Positions 24,181 through 28,113 of a DNA stretch of 64,000 bases are shown here, piece after piece; the first letter of the stretch is position 1; every line of letters begins with the position of its first letter. The stretch lies in contig NZ_CP162004.1 in assembly GCF_040822115.1 (NCBI RefSeq), positions 930,001 to 994,000 on the forward strand, written 5' to 3'. The translations under genes were made by a program, and so were the position numbers. Origin of the DNA: Flavobacterium sp. WC2421. GTDB taxonomy: Bacteria > Bacteroidota > Bacteroidia > Flavobacteriales > Flavobacteriaceae. Under the pieces are notes generated by a model, which ran no database searches, was not told the DNA's origin, and saw only the letters and a program-made list of their open reading frames with translations.

Positions 24181-24213
24181 TTACCGCAATTATTGCAGTT
24201 TTCACCGCAATAA
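24181..24213 (+). promoter_or_regulatory. Candidate LytTR operator upstream of the LytS gene
   Basis: TTACCGCAATTA (24181-24192) and TCACCGCAATAA (24202-24213) are direct repeats with a 21-base period, about 51 bases upstream of the LytS ATG. They share the TYACCKCAWWWA pattern with the pair at 26063-26095. LytTR regulators bind paired direct repeats about two helical turns apart, so this is a candidate autoregulatory site. Confidence 0.55.
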
Positions 24214-24263
24214 TTAGAATTTTTACGATTAGAACCCTAGATTTGAGTGGATAAGTAGTATTC

Positions 24264-25325
24264 ATGAAAAAAACGATTTCTTTTTACGCATTGCATTTTA
24301 GTCTATGTCTTGCATTCATGGTTTTGCCCTATGCATTTACTTCATCGGGAACCGTTTTAAGCTTGCCAGATTTGGTAAGTAATGGTCATGATAGAATTTA
24401 TTTTCTAATTTATTTTTTGTTGCTTATTTTCTTTTACCTCAATTATTATTATTTGATCCCTAAGGTTTATTTTTCAAATAAACTGATTCTATACTTTTCA
24501 ATAATTATCTTTTTTTTAGTTTTTTTTCTTTTTATTTCTAAATTTTTTGACCATCCAGAACGTAACTTTCTTGATTTCGGGCAGGGAATTCATCCTAAAG
24601 ATGGTTTTCTACCACCAAAATATATGGGGACGCCGCCTTTGATGGAGGGCGGGCCACCTACTCAATATGGTCATACGATTTTAGTCTATTTGATTGGGGT
24701 AATTTCCAGTTTGTTATTTGCGATTAATATTCGTTTACAAAAAGTAGAAAAAGATAAAATGAAATCGGAATTGTCTTTTTTGAAAGCACAAATTAACCCC
24801 CATTTTTTGTTTAATACCTTGAACAGTATTTATGCTTTAGCTATTAAAAAAGATGATAAAACGGCTGATGCTGTTGTGCAATTATCAGAACTCATGCGTT
24901 ACATAATTACAAATGCAAATGATGATGTAATTGCTTTGGACAAGGAAATAAACTACATCAATAACTTTATTCAACTCCAAAAAACGCGTTTAGGTAATAC
25001 CGTACAGGTTGATTATTCAATCGAAGGAAATACATATGGAAAATGTGTTACACCACTTATCTTGATTTCATTTATAGAAAATGCTTTTAAACATGGTGTT
25101 AATCCAAATGAAGACTCACAGATTGCTATACAAATTACTATTATTAATGATTATTTGACTTTATTTGTTTCCAATAATAAAGTACAATCAAAAAAATCAG
25201 ACAGTGGCATTGGATTGCAAAATACAATAGAAAGATTGTCCCTTTTGTACCCTAATAATCATGTTTTGACAATTGATGATAACCTCAAAAAATATAGTGT
25301 AACTTTAACTATCAAAGTAGGATGA
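24264..25325 (+). CDS. LytS/YpdA-type sensor histidine kinase
   Basis: The N-terminal half has four likely membrane helices (about 8-26, 45-66, 73-92, 137-156). The cytoplasmic kinase part is of the His_kinase (HPK7/8) type with the LKAQINPHFLFNTLNS box (phospho-acceptor His180) and an ATPase domain with NAFKHGVNP and GIGLQNTIERL. The extracellular loop of about 45 residues (about 93-136) contains DFGQGIHPKDGFLPPKY and may sense a ligand. It overlaps the LytTR gene by ATGA, so the pair is translationally coupled. A motif pair upstream may be an operator. Confidence 0.92.
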   Translation: MKKTISFYALHFSLCLAFMVLPYAFTSSGTVLSLPDLVSNGHDRIYFLIYFLLLIFFYLNYYYLIPKVYFSNKLILYFSIIIFFLVFFLFISKFFDHPERNFLDFGQGIHPKDGFLPPKYMGTPPLMEGGPPTQYGHTILVYLIGVISSLLFAINIRLQKVEKDKMKSELSFLKAQINPHFLFNTLNSIYALAIKKDDKTADAVVQLSELMRYIITNANDDVIALDKEINYINNFIQLQKTRLGNTVQVDYSIEGNTYGKCVTPLILISFIENAFKHGVNPNEDSQIAIQITIINDYLTLFVSNNKVQSKKSDSGIGLQNTIERLSLLYPNNHVLTIDDNLKKYSVTLTIKVG

Positions 25326-26011
25326 TTAAAGCCATTGCTCTTGATGACGAACCTTTAGCACTCGATATATTGCAAAGTTTTTGCAACGATATTGAGTATA
25401 TTGATTTGCAAAAAACATTTGCAAAATCGGAAGATGCTTTTAAATATTTAAAAAAGTATCCAGTTGATTTATTGTTTTTAGATATCAATATGCCGTCCAT
25501 TTCGGGGATTGATTTTTATAAAAAGTTACCAAATAAAGTGATGGTAATTTTTACAACTGCTCATTCTGAATATGCAGTCGAAGGATTTACTTTAAGTGCT
25601 ACTGATTATATTTTGAAACCTTTTTCTTTTCCAAGATTCGAACAAGCGGTTGAAAAAGCATACTCACAATGGAAATTGCAAAATCAAGATCCTGAAAAAC
25701 TATATCTTTTTATTCGGGCTGATTACAGTTTAAATAAAATTCTTATTTCTGATATTTTATATGTAGAAGGATTAGACGATTACTTGAAAATTCACTTAGA
25801 AAATCAAAAGACAATTGTGGCCAGAATGACTTTGAAAGCACTACTCCAAAAATTGCCTGTACCTGAATTTATAAGAGTGCACCGTTCTTATATTGTCCCT
25901 ATTTCTAAAATTGAAAAAGTAAGAAATAAGATAATTTACATCAATCAGGAGGAAATTCCTGTAAGTGCCAGTTATGAATTGGCTTTTTTTACTGCAATTC
26001 ATAAGGAATAA
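25322..26011 (+). CDS. LytTR-family response regulator
   Basis: The receiver domain (about 1-120) has the acidic pocket at Asp8/Asp9, the phospho-acceptor Asp54 in LFLDINMPSISG and the conserved Lys in YILKPFSF. The C-terminal LytTR DNA-binding domain (about 130-229) shows ILYVEGLDDYLKIHLENQK and FIRVHRSYIVP. It forms a two-component system with the overlapping LytS gene. The 12-base direct repeats in front of the next gene and in front of lytS are candidate binding sites. Confidence 0.95.
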   Translation: MIKAIALDDEPLALDILQSFCNDIEYIDLQKTFAKSEDAFKYLKKYPVDLLFLDINMPSISGIDFYKKLPNKVMVIFTTAHSEYAVEGFTLSATDYILKPFSFPRFEQAVEKAYSQWKLQNQDPEKLYLFIRADYSLNKILISDILYVEGLDDYLKIHLENQKTIVARMTLKALLQKLPVPEFIRVHRSYIVPISKIEKVRNKIIYINQEEIPVSASYELAFFTAIHKE

Positions 26012-26062
26012 AAAATCATTTTAAAAGAATAAAACTATTACATTATTGTATTTTATGTTAGT

Positions 26063-26095
26063 TTACCTCATAAAATCATGCTGTTACCTCATAAA
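26063..26095 (+). promoter_or_regulatory. LytTR-type direct-repeat operator of the dioxygenase operon
   Basis: TTACCTCATAAA occurs twice, perfectly, at 26063-26074 and 26084-26095, a 21-base period or two helical turns. A near-consensus -7 element (TACTTTTA) follows at 26120. The distance from the second copy to the predicted transcription start (about 40 bases) suits activation. The adjacent LytTR gene is the obvious candidate regulator. Confidence 0.7.
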
Positions 26096-26155
26096 TTTCA
26101 GGGATTCTTTCCATTTAAATACTTTTATTGAAAACAACAATAAAATCATTTAGAG

Positions 26156-26905
26156 ATGGAAAGAAAGCAATTTTTAAAAGGATTGGGATTTGCAGGTTTA
26201 GGCGCTTTGACTATTCCAGTAATCAAAGCTTGTAGCAGTAATAATACTAATGCATCAACATCTGACACAACCCAAGCAACCGATACTAGCGGATCAACTT
26301 CTACAAGTAGTTGTTCTGTTACTTCATCTGAAACAGCAGGGCCGTTTCCTACAAAATCACCTTCTTCATTGGTTGCTACAAACATTGTTAGTGATAGAAC
26401 TGGCATTGGATTTACAATCAACATAACAATCAACAATACAAATGCCAGTTGTGCTGCTTTGGCTGGAGCAATTGTAGACATTTGGCATTGTGATAAGGAT
26501 GGGTATTATTCAGAATATGGAGGAACAGGAATGCAATCAGCTGACTTTACTTCGGTTCATTTTTTAAGAGGAAGACAAACCACAAACGCAAATGGTAAAG
26601 TTAGTTTTACTTCTGTTTTCCCAGGATGGTATAGCGGTAGAGCTACACACATACATGTCCATGTTTATAACTCTTCAGGAACTTCTTTACTAGTTACTCA
26701 AATTGCGTTTCCTGAAGGGTCAAATAGCGCCGTAGTTTTGGTAAATACTTCATCTGCCAATGGCTATACAAAAGGGATGTCAGGTTATACATATAACAGT
26801 TCTGATAATGTTTTTTCGGATGGAGTGGCCAATGAATTGTCAACAGTTACAGGAAGTGTTGCTGAAGGTTTTGTGCTTGAGCATGCTATAAATGTTGCTG
26901 GTTAA
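26156..26905 (+). CDS. Intradiol ring-cleavage dioxygenase-like lipoprotein
   Basis: The start MERKQFLKGLGFAGLGALTIPVIKAC is a signal with a likely lipid Cys26, followed by a Ser/Thr-rich linker to about residue 55. The catalytic domain has ETAGPF, DIWHCDKDGYYSEY, FLRGRQTT and PGWYSGRATHIHVHV, which contain the four likely iron ligands (Tyr118, Tyr159, His165, His167) of protocatechuate/catechol dioxygenases. Active enzyme is therefore possible, but secreted and lipid-linked members have no assigned substrate. It is the first gene of the LytTR-controlled block; pirin-like and unknown genes follow with tight spacing. Confidence 0.85.
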   Translation: MERKQFLKGLGFAGLGALTIPVIKACSSNNTNASTSDTTQATDTSGSTSTSSCSVTSSETAGPFPTKSPSSLVATNIVSDRTGIGFTINITINNTNASCAALAGAIVDIWHCDKDGYYSEYGGTGMQSADFTSVHFLRGRQTTNANGKVSFTSVFPGWYSGRATHIHVHVYNSSGTSLLVTQIAFPEGSNSAVVLVNTSSANGYTKGMSGYTYNSSDNVFSDGVANELSTVTGSVAEGFVLEHAINVAG

Positions 26906-26906
26906 A

Positions 26907-27617
26907 ATGAAGGAACAAAGTCAAGCTCAAATATACAAATCGGAATTAAGAGGACTTTTAATTTCAGATGGGGATAATTGTCTGTCTACTTTCAATTTTG
27001 GTACTTATTATGATGACTTTAGAAAACCGTTTGGCTTATTACACGTTTTAAATGAAGAAATTCTTTTGCCTCAACATTGTTCTAAAACAAGTATAGAAAC
27101 GGATACTGAAATAATTATTTTACCATTATTTGGAGGTGTTGAATACAAAGACAGTCTAGGAAACGAGGATTTCATTAGAGTCGAACAAATAAGGAGTTTT
27201 TCTGCTGAAAAAGGAATGTCATTTGAGCTTTTTAATCCTTATGGAGTGGAGAATGTTAGTTATTTACAAATTTGGATTAAGTCCGGAAAACAGGATTCAA
27301 AAACTGGGTTCAAACAATTTGATTTTGATTTGAACCAAAAAAACCAATTGATTTCATTATTCAAAACTGCAAATAGTTTTGGTTTTATTGGAAATTATGA
27401 AGGTAGGATCGAAGGACTTTATCAGTTGAAAAACAAATCAAATGGCGTTTTCATTTTTGTGATTAGTGGCGCATTCGAAATTGATAATCGATTGTTGGAA
27501 TCCAGAGACGGATTGCATTTGCTAAAAACAGATTTTTTTGAATGGGAAGCATTATCCGAAAATGCTCTTTTTTTGCTGTTAGAAATACCATTAGATAAAG
27601 AACTGATTTATGAATAA
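26907..27617 (+). CDS. Pirin-like cupin protein
   Basis: The start is placed at the ATG at 26907, one base after the dioxygenase stop, because it gives MKEQSQAQIYKSELRG, similar to pirin-like openings. The sequence TFNFGTYYDDFRKPFGLLHVLNEE, IIILPLFGGVEYKDSLG and YLQIWIK are typical of pirin/quercetinase-type double-cupin proteins. However the cupin metal residues are less clear than in true quercetinases. It overlaps the next gene by 8 bases. It probably works in the same process as the dioxygenase. Confidence 0.75.
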   Translation: MKEQSQAQIYKSELRGLLISDGDNCLSTFNFGTYYDDFRKPFGLLHVLNEEILLPQHCSKTSIETDTEIIILPLFGGVEYKDSLGNEDFIRVEQIRSFSAEKGMSFELFNPYGVENVSYLQIWIKSGKQDSKTGFKQFDFDLNQKNQLISLFKTANSFGFIGNYEGRIEGLYQLKNKSNGVFIFVISGAFEIDNRLLESRDGLHLLKTDFFEWEALSENALFLLLEIPLDKELIYE

Positions 27618-28113
27618 TATTAAAATCCGATTAGCCTATCGATTGGTAATTGACAGCGCTTCGACTTTTATCTGGGACAAATATGTTCATGAAGATACTT
27701 TCAAGGAATATTTCATGCAACATCAACAATTCAATTCTAAGGAAAATCCTAAAAATACCTTTCGGGAGTTGCTTTCAGAAAATGAAAAAGCCAATCAATT
27801 GCATTATTTAGTTGGGATTGCAGCTAGCAATTATGTAGACCAGCTCAAAGGGAACTTTCATCGGGTTACTGATGTATTGGGAAATCAATATTTCCCTTTT
27901 ACAAATTATCAATTGGATATCATTAATACAGATTGCACTGACATCGTAAAGCACAAAATAGGCATAACGTTTTATTCTCCTGTTTTGGCGTATTTAGGCA
28001 TGGTTGAGAAAAACTATTTGGTTTCAAAAAACAGTACTGACTGCAATGAATTTGACACGATTATGTTTCCAGCGCAACCTAATTTAGCTATTTGTTTTTA
28101 CAAAGAAGAGTAA
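27610..28113 (+). CDS. Unknown protein of the dioxygenase operon (167 aa)
   Basis: The protein overlaps the pirin-like gene by 8 bases and is the last of the LytTR-controlled block. It has no signal peptide or clear membrane helix and no recognised motif. The residues VGIAASNYVDQLKGNFHRVTDVLGNQYFPFTNYQLDIIN and the closing LAICFYKEE suggest a soluble alpha/beta protein. Three Cys residues are scattered. Its position suggests a role with the dioxygenase and pirin-like proteins, though none is shown. Confidence 0.65.
   Translation: MNNIKIRLAYRLVIDSASTFIWDKYVHEDTFKEYFMQHQQFNSKENPKNTFRELLSENEKANQLHYLVGIAASNYVDQLKGNFHRVTDVLGNQYFPFTNYQLDIINTDCTDIVKHKIGITFYSPVLAYLGMVEKNYLVSKNSTDCNEFDTIMFPAQPNLAICFYKEE

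Follow-up and report, generated by a model that had tools for sequence, protein, structure and literature searches.

LytTR-type regulators bind two repeats of 9 to 11 nt separated by a gap of 11 to 13 nt (PMC4847170) and can activate transcription from sites immediately upstream of the -35 element (PMC6193735). The LytTR Regulatory Systems (LRS) HdrR and BrsR of Streptococcus mutans have direct-repeat LytTR promoters that serve positive autoregulation as well as target operons (PMC6193735). LytTR operons with direct repeats were also predicted in 2018 for Bacteroides thetaiotaomicron and B. ovatus (PMC6193735, Table 3), and the original prediction for the locus described below, that such repeats were apparently undescribed in Bacteroidota, does not hold. 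These and the later comparisons follow the available portions of the cited papers. The site type and its autoregulatory use are already published, and the regulon described here is apparently unmapped. In titles and the first parts of abstracts, we found nothing on this motif, on this regulon or on a Flavobacterium LytTR operator; the only Bacteroidota LytTR operators that turned up in this material were the predicted Bacteroides ones, and the accessible part of PMC3875573 gave no binding site. Here, we analyzed a stretch of 64,000 nucleotides from Flavobacterium sp. WC2421 (contig NZ_CP162004.1), hereafter the window, in which genes for a sensor kinase and a LytTR response regulator precede an operon headed by a dioxygenase-like gene.

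Repeat pairs, predicted promoters and regulator of the locus

The 12-mer TTACCTCATAAA is present at 26063-26074 and again at 26084-26095, before the dioxygenase-like gene, while TTACCGCAATTA (24181-24192) and TCACCGCAATAA (24202-24213) are found upstream of the kinase gene. After rechecking the letters, the predicted starts (24181/24202 and 26063/26084) and the 21-bp period of each pair proved exact, and with this period both pairs fit the repeat and gap lengths of LytTR sites (PMC4847170). The 12-mer TYACCKCAWWWA occurred six times in the window against 0.67 expected, the two further matches being unpaired (24434, within the kinase gene, and 46477, minus strand). A scan of the window for TYACCKCA pairs at 21 bp (TYACCKCA-N13-TYACCKCA), the pattern that the original prediction had proposed, returned two, both on the plus strand, compared with 0.0 on average over 300 sequences simulated with a first-order Markov model. 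Both repeat pairs are thereby confirmed as real, beyond chance.

Table 1. Coordinates of the sites, predicted promoter elements and genes (positions in the window)
Feature	Position	Strand	Sequence or remarks
Distal half-site, kinase pair	24181..24188	+	TTACCGCA
Promoter-proximal half-site, kinase pair	24202..24209	+	TCACCGCA, 21 bp past distal half-site
Predicted -7 box, kinase-LytTR promoter	24238..24245	+	TAGATTTG
Sensor histidine kinase	24264..25325	+	PF06580, 95.2 bits; hydrophobic N-terminal half
LytTR response regulator	25322..26011	+	Receiver PF00072, 72.8 bits; LytTR domain PF04397, 69.8 bits; both over cut-off
Distal half-site, dioxygenase pair	26063..26070	+	TTACCTCA
Promoter-proximal half-site, dioxygenase pair	26084..26091	+	TTACCTCA
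Predicted -33 element, dioxygenase promoter	26096..26099	+	TTTC
Predicted -7 box, dioxygenase promoter	26120..26127	+	TACTTTTA
Intradiol-dioxygenase-like protein, lipoprotein-like start	26156..26905	+	PF00775 (Dioxygenase_C), 42.2 bits, over cut-off
Pirin/quercetinase-type cupin protein	26907..27617	+	
Conserved 167-aa protein, third operon gene	27610..28113	+	Pfam: no family over cut-off

The regulator gene overlaps the kinase gene by 4 bp, and its product carries FIRVHRS at residue 183, which resembles the FFRCHNS motif of the AgrA LytTR domain (PMC4227749). The kinase had been labeled LytS. Its PF06580 domain agrees with a LytS-type kinase, but PF06580 was the sole Pfam family listed at E ≤1 and the input domain 5TMR_LYT, which is part of the LytS-type definition (PMC10653868), was absent from that listing, so that the protein is not LytS proper. 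An LRS, in which a membrane inhibitor takes the place of the kinase, was considered as well and is excluded by the receiver domain and the histidine kinase.

Promoter anatomy was examined by aligning 55 upstream regions on the pair and keeping 16 that were mutually less than 60% identical outside the half-sites. In these 16 regions, the columns above 1.2 bits were the half-sites, a T preceding the first half-site, TTT at +33 to +35, A at +54, and T57, A58, T61, T62 and T63, which together read TANNTTT. The first three columns of the -33 element were T in 16, 16 and 14 of the 16 dissimilar regions. Half-site columns carried 1.60 bits compared with 0.55 elsewhere, the first figure being inflated and half-site conservation partly built in because a good pair was needed for membership; the -33 and -7 columns played no part in region selection. 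The -33 position of the kinase promoter reads TTAG (24214-24217), which is imperfect, as is the TTTC of the dioxygenase promoter.

The predicted kinase promoter has a fixed geometry. In the 40 loci whose kinase shares at least 57% identity with that of the window, distances of 24 to 32 nt were allowed between the proximal half-site and the box; a distance of exactly 28 nt, with the full TANNTTTG, was the best solution in 36, the exceptions being L144, L151, L153 (where a contig end cuts it) and L156. The distal half-site is weak at the relatives' kinase genes: of the 36 fixed-geometry loci, 28 match it at 4 or 5 of 8 positions. Kinases less than 45% identical mostly come without the 28-nt promoter, which is present in L182, L185, L193 and L194.

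Since the half-sites are two turns apart and the proximal one (counted as 8 bp) ends 4 nt upstream of the -33 element, we propose that the regulator activates both operons. Our main reading, to which we give a probability of roughly 0.8, is that the LytTR protein would activate its own kinase-LytTR genes and the dioxygenase operon through the two pairs. The sequences themselves establish the sites, their period, a constant distance to a promoter-like box, their conservation and their link to the LytTR gene; we infer that this protein binds them, that it activates and does not repress, that phosphorylation controls it, and what the signal is, as follows. Once stimulated, the membrane kinase would phosphorylate the regulator, of which two subunits would occupy the two ACC[GT]CA half-sites on the same DNA face. 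Bound there, immediately before a promoter of the Bacteroidota type (-33 TTT, -7 TANNTTT), the two subunits would aid initiation by RNA polymerase. The kinase pair would drive the kinase-LytTR operon, making a positive feedback, and the dioxygenase pair the operon of dioxygenase, cupin and 167-aa protein. The signal may be an aromatic compound or a breakdown product thereof.

The alternative that survives best, although we consider it improbable, is that the LytTR protein binds but represses, or requires a partner, in which case the pair would be a switch and not a simple activator site. With the proximal half-site this close to the -33 element, contact with the polymerase and blocking of it are alike conceivable, but the sites end upstream of that element and leave both promoter boxes free. 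Activator-dependent promoters often have imperfect -33 elements, and those of the window (TTTC and TTAG) are of this kind, which also argues for activation.

Conservation of the pair and its link to the LytTR gene

A scan of GTDB contigs identified 531 relatives of the dioxygenase, the best 80 of which made up our set of loci. A pair matching at least 14 of 16 positions at exactly 21 bp, no more than 300 bp upstream of the dioxygenase, was found in 54 of these 80 loci. The repeats are thus conserved upstream of orthologs, as had been expected, and the pair tracks the LytTR gene. Within the range of 9 to 40 bp, the next spacings were 40 bp, in 17 loci, and 28 bp, in 15; on the alignment, we read these as half-like sequences common to one Flavobacterium subgroup. 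The opposite strand of the 80 upstream regions had no pair at any spacing in this range. Over 2.59 Mb, both strands included, 54 sites were upstream of the dioxygenase, nine upstream of kinase genes and 11 elsewhere. Pairs upstream of the kinase gene or of the kinase-LytTR operon were also observed in other species, some of them without a nearby dioxygenase.

Among the same best 80 of 531, 64 loci have a LytTR gene at least 45% identical, and 53 of them carry the pair. It was also present in one of the 14 loci without a LytTR gene (a contig that ends close by) and in neither of the two loci with a more distant LytTR gene; these and the other counts across loci and genomes are not independent, because the species share ancestry. 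Eleven of the 64 were without a pair at the threshold. Four of them score 13 of 16 (L144, L176, L177, L181), two have the pair further upstream, heading inserted genes (L117, L153), and five reach at most 12 of 16 positions with no pair elsewhere (L169, L183, L188, L189, L192). Four loci (L120, L124, L125, L132) keep the dioxygenase pair with a LytTR gene roughly 8 kb upstream, where the stretch examined ends. In Leeuwenhoekiella palythoae (L185), a perfect pair precedes the kinase and the dioxygenase alike.

Several loci differed in gene content. In L084 (G083), an internal stop divides the reading frame of the dioxygenase in two, with the upstream pair intact. In L117, L135 and L153, an insertion of genes for a DUF3500 lipoprotein and a HupE/UreJ-type membrane protein (families called on L135) separates the LytTR gene from the dioxygenase and carries its own 21-bp pair. 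A secreted M43-peptidase-like gene with a type IX secretion tail was observed in L284, L285, L288, L108, L235 and L087, its domains being called on L288 only; in these six genomes (G055, G603, G635, G118, G033 and G133), what it follows is the site, the kinase-LytTR gene pair or the operon of the dioxygenase. A distant dioxygenase clade has the order kinase-dioxygenase-LytTR (L089-L091 and L093-L098, nine genomes), with a LytTR protein about 40% identical to that of the window. No pair was found before the kinase in these nine, nor before the first gene of the longer operon in the five of nine loci where that gene was found; the dioxygenase ends this longer operon in the two loci that were fully read. 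The stretches examined around three further distant dioxygenase matches (L092, L099, L100) contained neither kinase nor LytTR gene.

We then searched whole genomes. In the own genome of 3.83 Mb, TTACCKCA-N13-TTACCKCA gave one site with no mismatch and one with a single mismatch, which are the two of the window, and six sites with two mismatches, for a total of eight, equal to the eight of the reversed control. A composite made of the half-site pair and the -7 box TANNTTTR, 28 nt downstream of the proximal half-site, was found without mismatch only at the two places of the window. With one mismatch there was one site, within a 326-codon open frame of the opposite strand, with two mismatches there were four, and with up to three mismatches the 33 sites equaled the 33 of the control. 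For a wider regulon, this genome therefore held no further mismatch-free composite, and searches with up to three mismatches were at control level. The 28-nt distance was picked after inspecting the sites, so that searches of the family and the genus are fairer tests.

Across 397 Flavobacteriaceae genomes from 237 genera, the window's genus included, the exact composite occurred at four sites in two genomes, compared with one in the reversed control. Two of the four are those of the window. The remaining two come from a genome of another genus (G370) and are separated by 1.8 kb; one is upstream of a kinase gene (35% identical) and the other upstream of a dioxygenase gene (62%), and a LytTR gene (49%) lies in between. 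Immediately upstream of the G370 kinase site is a second kinase-LytTR gene pair (L241 36-1477; 36 and 38% identical to those of the window), which falls outside the circuit as drawn. The exact composite is strict and missed other relatives, such as Chryseobacterium loci in which the distal half-site is TTACCGACA.

A looser composite, with ACCKCW as the half-site and a distance of 27 or 28 nt, had 60 sites in 49 of 348 Flavobacterium genomes, compared with six in the reversed control. All 60 were inspected up to 2.2 kb upstream and 4.5 kb downstream, or less where the stretch was shorter: 50 sites (43 genomes) adjoin kinase, LytTR or dioxygenase genes, or the associated DUF3500, HupE or M43 peptidase genes. 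The ten unlinked sites (G720c, G066, G009, G736, G127, G118b, G074b, G684, G105, G033b), scored as misses, slightly exceed the six of the control; they may include further targets, or may be background throughout. Three genomes with unlinked sites have the LytTR gene, namely G118 (L281), G033 (L282) and G074 (L286), where these sites could likewise be further targets or background.

The presence of the site was also compared with that of the regulator in 150 Flavobacterium genomes. The LytTR gene (E ≤1e-70) was found in all 18 genomes with a dioxygenase at least 65% identical and in 4 of the 132 others. The strict pair without the box gave 26 sites, compared with nine in the control. Of these, 11 were upstream of the dioxygenase, two upstream of a kinase gene, one heading an operon in G145 and one before pgk (G073); of the 11 others, six fall within open frames that run to roughly 200 codons or more. 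The site in G145, a genome in which no dioxygenase turned up, heads an operon of two secreted-protein-like genes, the kinase and the LytTR gene. Sites also stand upstream of the kinase-LytTR genes in G603 and G033, with no dioxygenase seen nearby, and upstream of the kinase or the kinase-LytTR operon in G118; in G055, the site is directly 3' of the LytTR gene and upstream of the M43-peptidase-like gene. The stretches examined for G118 and G055 contained no dioxygenase. In G073 (L103), where no dioxygenase was found in the genome, the pair is directly upstream of pgk; since the dioxygenase operon of the window is followed by pgk, this pair is possibly a promoter relic, or a new target.

Slightly less probable still than repression is that the pairs are sites of another regulator, the LytTR genes being merely members of its regulon. 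The own genome encodes ten LytTR domains, the one described here and nine others, any of which might bind a similar motif. However, of the 22 genomes that have the LytTR gene, 15 contained strict pairs, compared with 7 of the 128 without it, and repeat type and period are of the kind that LytTR proteins bind in the published examples. A rough scan of 1.5 kb on each side of the nine other domains, run without a control, revealed weak, unconvincing pairs near four of them (L009, L014, L016, L017) and an ACC[GT]CA pair near none, which may speak against this alternative. We consider it very improbable that the repeats arose by chance or are non-functional sequence retained by recent common descent, for although long upstream stretches are common to Flavobacterium loci, the half-sites of the 16 dissimilar regions stand above their surroundings (in part through selection), the -33 and -7 columns were unselected, and both L. 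palythoae and G370 carry pairs before both genes. Conservation and the link to the LytTR gene thus support the original prediction that this protein would activate its own genes and the dioxygenase operon.

The dioxygenase operon and a possible regulatory code

Intradiol dioxygenases hold their iron through a Tyr-Tyr-His-His set of ligands. In 16 aligned dioxygenase sequences, Y118, Y159, H165 and H167 were invariant, and we take these residues to be the predicted iron ligands on that pattern. The best PDB matches of the dioxygenase profile were 6bdj (Tetur07g02040) and 5vg2, presumably spider-mite enzymes, which makes an aromatic compound a reasonable guess for the signal or the substrate. 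The operon may oxidize aromatic compounds at the cell surface. The predicted structure of the 167-aa protein is confident (pLDDT 93, pTM 0.86), and in the PDB neither this predicted fold nor the sequence had a clear relative.

We hold a broader reading tentatively, at a little less than even odds: a dedicated two-component system of Bacteroidota would use a fixed promoter code, readable across genera, to switch on a cell-surface oxidation module. The code would be ACC[GT]CA half-sites at 21 bp, with a distance from the proximal one to the -7 box that is shorter by about one turn compared with the LytTR promoters predicted for Bacteroides. The module would consist of the intradiol-type dioxygenase, the cupin and the 167-aa protein, extended in some species by the DUF3500 lipoprotein and HupE-type membrane protein, or by the M43 peptidase. 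If true, such regulons could be read from sequence alone across genera. The exact geometry makes one of the ten LytTR-domain circuits of this genome testable with two short DNA probes, and the site offers a handle on an uncharacterized operon that possibly oxidizes aromatic compounds at the cell surface. In a coevolution paper on Flavobacterium johnsoniae, as far as its available part goes, all five replicate columns were mutated in one of two LytTR/histidine kinase genes, which have neighboring locus numbers in one mutation table (PMC10197871).

Comparison with known LytTR systems

Among the described LytTR systems with a kinase, AgrA belongs to quorum sensing and its targets are unrelated to those proposed here, and BtsR has an ACC-type motif. 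As judged from the available text, AgrA of Staphylococcus aureus (PMC4227749) resembles the regulator of the window in its FFRCHNS-type motif and, on our main reading, in acting as a dimer on direct repeats; those of AgrA are upstream of P2 and P3, in the region of its own operon. YpdA/YpdB and BtsS/BtsR of Escherichia coli likewise combine a LytS-type kinase with a LytTR regulator (PMC4847170, PMC5552118, PMC10653868). YpdB recognizes GGCATTTCAT as a pair of direct repeats before a target gene, with a spacing of 21 bp according to the letters of the probe. The half-site letters here differ from those of YpdB, and the E. coli systems, in the parts of the reports available, sense pyruvate and have the 5TMR_LYT input that was not listed for our kinase.

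The half-site is close to the published LytTR site ACCTCTTAG-12 bp-ACCACTTAA (PMC6193735). The S. mutans LRS of that report share with the window ACC-type repeats with a 21-bp period (there 9-bp repeats and a 12-bp gap) placed just upstream of the promoter. They differ in their partner, a membrane inhibitor there compared with a histidine kinase here, along with the receiver domain in the regulator. The S. mutans repeats end 4 to 11 bp before -35 and our 8-bp half-site 4 nt before -33; counted as a 9-bp repeat (ACC to ATAA), the gap here is 1 nt. The predicted Bacteroides operons belong to the same phylum as Flavobacterium and have direct repeats with CCGG/ACCG-type half-sites upstream of a TATCTTTG -7 box. 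According to the table available, however, their repeats are 11 bp long with a 22-bp period, stand 11 bp before -33 and have other half-site letters, and their LytTR proteins carry transmembrane segments, a difference from the system described here. From the start of the proximal repeat to the -7 box, we computed 45 nt in Bacteroides, from that table and an alignment, compared with 34 nt in the window.
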